A stretch of DNA of 64,000 nt, taken from Thermofilum uzonense (GTDB taxonomy: Archaea > Thermoproteota > Thermoprotei > Thermofilales > Thermofilaceae). The position numbers and the translations under genes were made by a program. The stretch is taken from positions 738,714-802,713 of the forward strand of contig NZ_CP009961.1 of NCBI RefSeq assembly GCF_000993805.1. Direction: 5' to 3'. Below are positions 60,121 to 61,815 of this stretch, in pieces (position 1 is the first letter of the stretch; each line of letters begins with the position of its first letter). The notes under the pieces are model-generated. The model saw only the letters and a list, made by a program, of their open reading frames with translations, was not told where the DNA came from and made no database searches.

Positions 60121-60423
60121 CTAGTCTGCAGGGGGAGATTCTGCTAGCGCTTCATCGGATATTAGAGAAGCAGCTAAAACATGGTTAGCGTGCTTTTCGA
60201 TTTCTTCAGCTGGAACTGTAGTCTTGCAGGTTAAACAATAAGCCCAACCCTGTTGGGTTAAGGCTTCATTTAGTTCCTCGGTGGTCACCTCCTTGGCCAT
60301 TTGGCAATCTGGATCGACATTCCTTGAATATACAATCATGTTCCTAGCGGAGCAATAACCCAAGTCGTCAAAGGCCGAGTGGGGCTTAAAGTATAAACAC
60401 CTCATACAGGGGACTACCCGCAT
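60121..60423 (-). CDS. Small Cys-rich putative zinc protein of the oxidoreductase operon
   Basis: A 100-residue protein: CMRCLYFKPHSAFDDLGYC near the start, then C in PDCQMAKEVTTEELNEAL and a CLTCKTTVPAEEIEKHANH knuckle near residues 63-81 (CxxC...HxxxH-like). The pattern suggests two zinc-binding sites. It lies 2 nt before the korA start and 9 nt after the ferredoxin gene, so it is in the operon. I do not recognise a family; an assembly or electron-transfer accessory role is a guess. Confidence 0.65.
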   Translation of the reverse strand: MRVVPCMRCLYFKPHSAFDDLGYCSARNMIVYSRNVDPDCQMAKEVTTEELNEALTQQGWAYCLTCKTTVPAEEIEKHANHVLAASLISDEALAESPPAD

Positions 60424-60432
60424 CCCCTGTGC

Positions 60433-60678
60433 TCACCCAATATCCTCAATTGATATAGCGTTGACGGGGCACACGTCAGCACCCGAGCGAGCGCAGTCGT
60501 AGAGATCCTCGGGTATCTCTCCAACAGAGATGTTCTCGTCAGTATTAACACTATATTTGGCTACTACTCTGTTTTTCCCATTATCGTCCCCAAGCTCGAA
60601 GACCTCGGGACAAGCAGCGGGAGCAGCACCACAAGAAATGCATGCAGCTCTATTAACTACAACACGATATTTCTTCAT
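60433..60678 (-). CDS. Ferredoxin with atypical cluster ligands
   Basis: An 81-residue small ferredoxin like the single-cluster Pyrococcus/Thermococcus type (CxxC/DxxC...CP and a distant CP). Here the first motif is C13-I-S-C16-G-A-A-P-A-A-C23-P: the third expected cluster Cys (position 19) is Ala, while the second position (often Asp) is Cys. The closing motif is DCARSGADVCPVNAI. Ligands could be C13, C16, C70 and one of C23/C62, giving a non-standard or [3Fe-4S]-type site. It is the probable electron acceptor of the adjacent oxidoreductase. Confidence 0.8.
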   Translation of the reverse strand: MKKYRVVVNRAACISCGAAPAACPEVFELGDDNGKNRVVAKYSVNTDENISVGEIPEDLYDCARSGADVCPVNAISIEDIG

Positions 60679-60858: not shown

Positions 60859-61626
60859 TCATTTTCCCGAGTGAGGCCTCCATTTCATCAGGGTGAGCGC
60901 ATTAGATATGACTGTTATGTCGCTTAAAATCATGGCTGCTGCAGCAAGCTCTGGTCGAATCATTATGCCGAGACTCTTGTATAAGACGCCTGCAGCTACA
61001 GGTATTAGCGTAGCATTGTATGCAAAAGCCCACGCGAGGTTCTGGACTGCTTTTTTCCGAGCATGGATGCTTAGACTGTATAGATCTGCAAGTGCTTCCA
61101 GATTCCCGTTTATTAAAAATACGTCTCCAGCTTCTTTTGATGTGTCTGCACCGCCACCCATTGCTACCCCCAGGAATGCCCTTCCGATCGCCGGTGCATC
61201 GTTGACCCCGTCTCCCGCAAAGAGGGCTCTGCGCCCAGAGCCCTGGAGCTTGTCAACAAGGTCGGCCTTGTCCTCTGGTCTAAGCTCGGCGTAAACCTCG
61301 TCTACACCCAGCTGAGAGGCTACGTATCGTGCCGCGTTTTCTGCATCTCCTGTAGCTAAGACAGTCCTTATTCCTTTCTCTTTAAAAAAGGAGATTACTT
61401 TGCTTGCCTCCTTTCTGAGCTCGTCGCTGACAATTACCGCTGCGGATAGCTTACTATTTATCGCTACAAGGAATGTTGTAGAACCTTTGCCCGTCTCTTC
61501 AATGTATAACTTTTCGACCTCTGAGGAAGTCTTGATTGAAAACGATTCGATAATTTTTTGTATTGCATAGACGCAGGCGGCACAGTCAACTCCTACCACT
61601 TTGATTCTCTCCTTGGTATACGGCAC
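60859..61626 (-). CDS. Internally deleted metal P-type ATPase: HMA domain fused to P domain and tail
   Basis: A 255-residue frame. Residues 1-25 are the start of a heavy-metal-binding domain (VGVDCAACVYAIQKI; C15/C18). From about residue 29 the sequence matches the end of the N-domain and the P-domain of a P1B ATPase: IVSDELRKEAS, TVLATGDAENAARYVASQLG, GDGVNDAPA at 138-146 and DVFLINGNLEALADLYSL, then the last two membrane spans (NLAWAFAYNATLIPVAAG; AAAAMILSDITVISNALTLM). The A-domain, the CPC/TPC span, the DKTGT phosphorylation site and most of the N-domain are missing, in frame. It cannot pump by the normal mechanism. It may be a decayed gene or a small regulator or metal-binding protein. 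Confidence 0.8.
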   Translation of the reverse strand: MPYTKERIKVVGVDCAACVYAIQKIIESFSIKTSSEVEKLYIEETGKGSTTFLVAINSKLSAAVIVSDELRKEASKVISFFKEKGIRTVLATGDAENAARYVASQLGVDEVYAELRPEDKADLVDKLQGSGRRALFAGDGVNDAPAIGRAFLGVAMGGGADTSKEAGDVFLINGNLEALADLYSLSIHARKKAVQNLAWAFAYNATLIPVAAGVLYKSLGIMIRPELAAAAMILSDITVISNALTLMKWRPHSGK

Positions 61627-61641
61627 AAGAAAACACCGGGC

Positions 61642-61815
61642 TTAATCAGGGTGTCCGGTAGGGCCGTGCTCAATATAATATTCGGGATTACTCGCAAAGG
61701 CTCTTTTGCATGCACTGCTGCAAAAATAGTATATCTTACCCTTGTAGATCGTCTTATACTTAGCTTTCTTAGAATTCACCTGCATTCCACATACTATATC
61801 AATTTCAAAACTCAT
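61642..61815 (-). CDS. YHS-domain protein, upstream of the P-type ATPase
   Basis: A 57-residue protein, ATG 61815 to TAA 61642. DIVCGMQVNSKKAKYKTIYK followed by YYFCSSACKRAFASNPEYYI is the YHS domain (C-G-M...Y-x-F-C-S-x-x-C), found beside or inside copper-transporting ATPases and proposed to deliver metal. The stop is 15 nt before the P-type ATPase start, so the two form an operon. Cysteines at positions 9, 32 and 36 would be the metal ligands. Confidence 0.85.
   Translation of the reverse strand: MSFEIDIVCGMQVNSKKAKYKTIYKGKIYYFCSSACKRAFASNPEYYIEHGPTGHPD

Follow-up and report, generated by a model that had tools for sequence, protein, structure and literature searches.

P1B-type copper ATPases (CopA; TIGR01525/TIGR01511; PDB entries 3rfu/4bbj and 3j09) are the described proteins against which we compare an open reading frame (ORF) of 255 aa with a GTG start (60859..61626, minus strand). 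It lies in a stretch of 64,000 nucleotides of Thermofilum uzonense DNA, referred to here as the window. The ORF shares with these pumps the last third of the protein, the GDGVNDAP and FxYN motifs and a YHS gene as genomic partner, but differs from them in having no A-domain, CPC helix, DKTGT motif, second HMA domain or six of the membrane helices, and only half of the first HMA domain. The motif-I Asp, which is essential for every P-type ATPase, is missing from it.

Two kinds of shortened gene product offer a further comparison. According to the account of Meydan 2017 given in PMC10187127, a copper chaperone of E. coli arises from copA by programmed frameshifting. Like the ORF described here, it is a short copA-derived protein with an N-terminal HMA region, yet as described there its HMA domain is complete and the full ATPase is made as well, whereas in T. 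uzonense the HMA domain is halved and no ATPase is left. Ordinary internal-deletion pseudogenes resemble the ORF in their clean deletion, lost functional core and intact relatives; unlike in those, the frame happens to be open and the sequence shows no secondary decay so far. A published counterpart of a collapsed archaeal CopA was not found in the literature. The ORF most probably is what a recent in-frame deletion within copA has left behind, and we refer to it as the remnant.

Composition of the remnant

Judged by its sequence, the remnant is a P1B-type ATPase by descent without DKTGT, CPC and actuator domain. Its C-terminal part is 59% identical to a full-length homologue of 811 aa (L114), and it matches TIGR01525 over positions 343-560 of 560 with 199 bits, under the family cut-off of 346. 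The ORF opens with VPYTKERIKVVGVDCAACVYAIQK, corresponding to the HMA start of relatives such as VRVVGVDCPTCVLAIQK. This HMA beginning comprises the first ~24 residues with GVDCAAC (CxxC; 61555..61626, minus strand), as seen in the alignment to the HMA domains of relatives and in a weak PF00403 match that covers profile positions 2-23 only and scores 14.2 bits, below the Pfam cut-off of 24.8. The second half is gone, so that the complete CxxC-bearing fold of an HMA domain or CopZ-like chaperone is absent. At K24/I25 (61552..61557, minus strand) the HMA residues ...AIQK are fused to IIESF..., where alignment places the tail of the nucleotide-binding N-domain (residues 25-67; 61426..61554, minus strand). 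The P domain that follows the N-domain insertion (residues 68-176; 61099..61425, minus strand) is recognized by PF00702, TIGR01525 and the AlphaFold2 (AF2) model and contains TGD, K120 and GDGVNDAPA. PF00702 aligns residues 37-150 with profile positions 68-190 of 191; the HAD motif I Asp and the first Rossmann strand are deleted. With this central strand and the nucleophile both lost from the HAD fold, the remnant would not be expected to show HAD catalysis. Two C-terminal transmembrane helices (residues 177-211 and 225-247; 60886..61098, minus strand) with the conserved FxYN and MxxS motifs are supported by the AF2 secondary structure, conserved columns and a Foldseek match to CopA (4bbj/3rfu). 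Within the ORF there is no match to the actuator domain (PF00122), no CPC-type metal-binding membrane helix and no DKTGT phospho-acceptor motif, the latter being present in all six close relatives. A preliminary description of the locus as HMA plus P domain therefore holds in so far as both are traceable, but the HMA domain is limited to its first half, the catalytic strand is missing from the P domain and the two C-terminal membrane helices are kept in addition.

Extent of the deletion

Within the family, six genomes (G002, G003, G009, G012, G014 and G016) encode full-length homologues (~800 aa) with CPC and DKTGT. Their frames measure 757-819 residues, the one of 757 ending at a contig end, and have two HMA-like domains ahead of the membrane part; identity to the remnant over the retained part is 47-59%. 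Compared with these, the remnant misses 538 codons (~1.61 kb), which is the length of the segment separating the junction flanks in five of the six relatives; in the remaining one this segment measures 537 codons. The middle two thirds of the gene have been lost in frame, with most of the first HMA domain, the second HMA domain, the first six membrane helices including CPC, the actuator domain, DKTGT and most of the N-domain. The alignment thus bears out the preliminary description of an open frame that runs from the start of a metal-binding domain into the end of the N-domain and on to a normal end, skipping the A-domain, the metal-binding membrane span and DKTGT. The loss is larger than the ~1.2 kb given there, and the codon-level comparison moves the junction from residues ~26-32 to 24/25.

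The junction DNA is found once in the genome, and no repeat or mobile element was seen. Because the relatives are only ~60% identical, microhomology at the breakpoint is not exactly definable; in some relatives, both ancestral breakpoint sites have an AAG/AGG-type codon ahead of hydrophobic residues. The probability that the frame stays open across such a junction by chance is one in three.

A wider survey of 109 homologous loci yielded no second collapsed form. DKTGT lies in the same open frame at 104 of them, and the other five comprise two frames of 701 residues in which CPC is present and the exact DKTGT string is not, two frameshifted full genes and one contig end. Three of the loci had been considered as further short forms and were rejected: in L025 and L026 a frameshift spreads a full gene over adjacent frames, and L054 runs off its contig. 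The former two (G044:C26 and G052:C46) are P1B-type ATPase genes of Thermoprotei split by frameshifts, possibly through sequencing errors or decay.

Genomic context

An intact YHS-domain gene of 57 aa (61642..61815, minus strand; PF04945, 60.4 bits) is located 15 bp upstream of the remnant, confirming the coupling that had been noted from the sequence. In all six relatives with full-length homologues the YHS gene directly precedes copA, which makes it the ancestral copA partner and the coupling in the window ancestral. Still intact, the YHS gene may go on serving in metal binding or may be the next to be lost. Neither a YHS gene nor a close homologue of the remnant occurs in G001, G004 and G006, i.e., in three of the six sampled species of the genus, so loss is common. 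In a fourth genome of the genus, G005, a frame of 688 aa that contains a YHS match lies immediately ahead of a more distant P1B match; the two probably represent one gene with a fused YHS part.

The remnant is followed in the window by genes for a small ferredoxin (60433-60678, minus strand) and for a protein of 100 aa that contains cysteine and has no Pfam match (60121-60423, minus strand). In G003, G012 and G015, similar ferredoxins adjoin the YHS-copA pair. Between G002 (L114) and G003 (L115), CTP synthase is 86% identical and the retained copA region only 55%. Given this much lower identity, the latter gene has probably undergone exchange or replacement between Thermofilaceae.

Searches of the genome, a single contig of 1,611,988 bases, used two profiles, PF00122 and TIGR01525, and a relative's copy of the missing segment; no full-length P1B-type ATPase was detected elsewhere. 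Three PF00122 genes lie away from the remnant and are by sequence of P2/P3 type; TIGR01525 gave nothing above its cut-off, and the missing segment matched only the same three genes, at 27-31% identity. The presence of a full-length CopA elsewhere, a check proposed in the preliminary description, is thus answered in the negative, with P2/P3-type ATPases as the only finds. Outside the window, a separate protein of ~95 aa (G000:C1:711939-712031, L129) has an HMA-like start (SGIGCASC...) and could be a metal chaperone; a similar small protein is encoded near copA in G003 (L115, around 1524-2021).

Conservation and predicted structure

The C-terminal 227 residues of the remnant were compared with 27 homologues in which a larger part of the gene is present. 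In the remnant, each of the 38 columns with at least 95% conservation is unchanged (38/38), and there is no stop. At the 83 columns with at least 70% conservation, the remnant departs at 15, compared with 15-21 departures in functional copies. Relative-rate tests against L114 with four outgroups gave chi2 values of 0.3, 0.9, 2.3 and 5.3, and the branch of the remnant measures 0.40 versus 0.24 for L114. There is thus no decay at the 38 invariant sites and at most a mild acceleration, which fits either recency or selection. When neutral substitution was simulated, the first stop or loss of an invariant residue came at a median of 0.7% substitutions per site (95% limit, 2.7%). A deletion followed by strict neutrality could be no older than about 0.03 substitutions per site. 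As the remnant shows neither event, it is either young or still constrained. Youth is favored because the residues of the phosphorylation cycle (GDGxND, TGD) are kept though the phospho-acceptor is gone.

The AF2 model of the remnant has a mean pLDDT of 84 and is confident from residue ~20 on, whereas residues 1-15 (<50) are predicted to be disordered, including most of the CxxC motif. In the model, the HMA piece VYAI (about residues 18-21) replaces a strand of the N-domain. Foldseek relates the model to copper ATPases (4bbj, TM-score 0.82 by query; 3rfu). Because the input alignment is rich in intact relatives, a good model is no proof that the fragment is stable.

Origin of the remnant

Taken together, these observations argue that the remnant probably represents a recent in-frame internal deletion of copA that abolished transport and left an inert membrane-anchored stub. 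In the ancestral state, copA would have encoded a copper-type P1B-ATPase as the second gene of a YHS-copA operon. A single in-frame internal deletion of ~1.61 kb would then have occurred in the T. uzonense lineage, so recently that decay of the rest of the gene has yet to begin. Any protein made from the remnant would be a P-domain fragment anchored by a hairpin. Since it would neither bind metal in the membrane nor form an aspartyl-phosphate, it could not transport. The remnant has intact orthologues in relatives and has lost essential residues, as a pseudogene formed by internal deletion would, and the fresh deletion proposed in the preliminary description gains support from the close relatives, which are all full length, from the undecayed retained part and from the lack of any other short form. 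Recency is probable from the sequence comparisons, even though one of the four relative-rate comparisons favors faster change in the remnant lineage (chi2 5.3) and L114 has the shorter branch.

What speaks against a stub is that the frame remains open across the junction and that the gene has preserved its start, its operon spacing and both membrane helices, a pattern expected of a selected protein. Selection may have retained the short form as a new mini-protein. Anchored in the membrane, this P-domain fragment with its CxxC tail would buffer or sense metal or would partner the YHS protein. We consider this reading unlikely. The open frame, ancestral operon position, complete set of invariant residues and confident model with VYAI as N-domain strand would all suit such a protein, but an in-frame join is a one-in-three chance, the short form is found in no relative and most of the CxxC motif falls in the disordered start. 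Furthermore, residues of the ATPase cycle are kept without a phospho-acceptor, which recency explains better than a new role. The small metal-sensing or HAD-like protein envisaged earlier likewise finds no positive support, given the incomplete HMA fold, the lost motif I Asp and the absence of the short form from relatives. The specific version in which the deletion itself created a selected membrane-anchored P-domain mini-protein, using the HMA piece as an N-domain strand and handling metal with the YHS protein after loss of the pump, appears very unlikely.

An assembly collapse or misjoin in an organism that carries a full-length copA is improbable too. The assembly drew on short reads from Illumina and Ion Torrent and on GapFiller to close gaps, three problem regions had to be corrected by PCR (PMC4673724), and restoring the missing piece would give an ordinary gene. 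Yet the junction DNA is unique and offers no repeat to drive a collapse; direct repeats nearby are pairs of 11-17 nt, shorter than the 64-nt assembly word (PMC4673724). Illumina coverage is 180x, and 2.4 kb mate pairs, validation by read mapping and Sanger correction at three places are reported (PMC4673724). The unique junction, the lack of a long repeat nearby and the published coverage and mapping validation make an assembly error unlikely. Finally, it is very unlikely that the deletion is peculiar to the sequenced isolate, as a polymorphism or a mutation acquired in laboratory culture, instead of being a trait of the species, although every retained invariant residue is undecayed and a neutral stub would be expected to lose one or gain a stop within the simulated median.

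Implications

The remnant most likely records the recent loss of a gene rather than the rise of a new kind of protein. A recent deletion of this kind would provide a snapshot of a hyperthermophilic archaeon with a small genome that has lost its sole heavy-metal P1B-type ATPase, taken before decay. It also calls for caution, as an open, conserved C-terminal frame and a confident structure model do not amount to evidence of function. For the organism itself, the prediction is that T. uzonense would live without P1B-type metal efflux.
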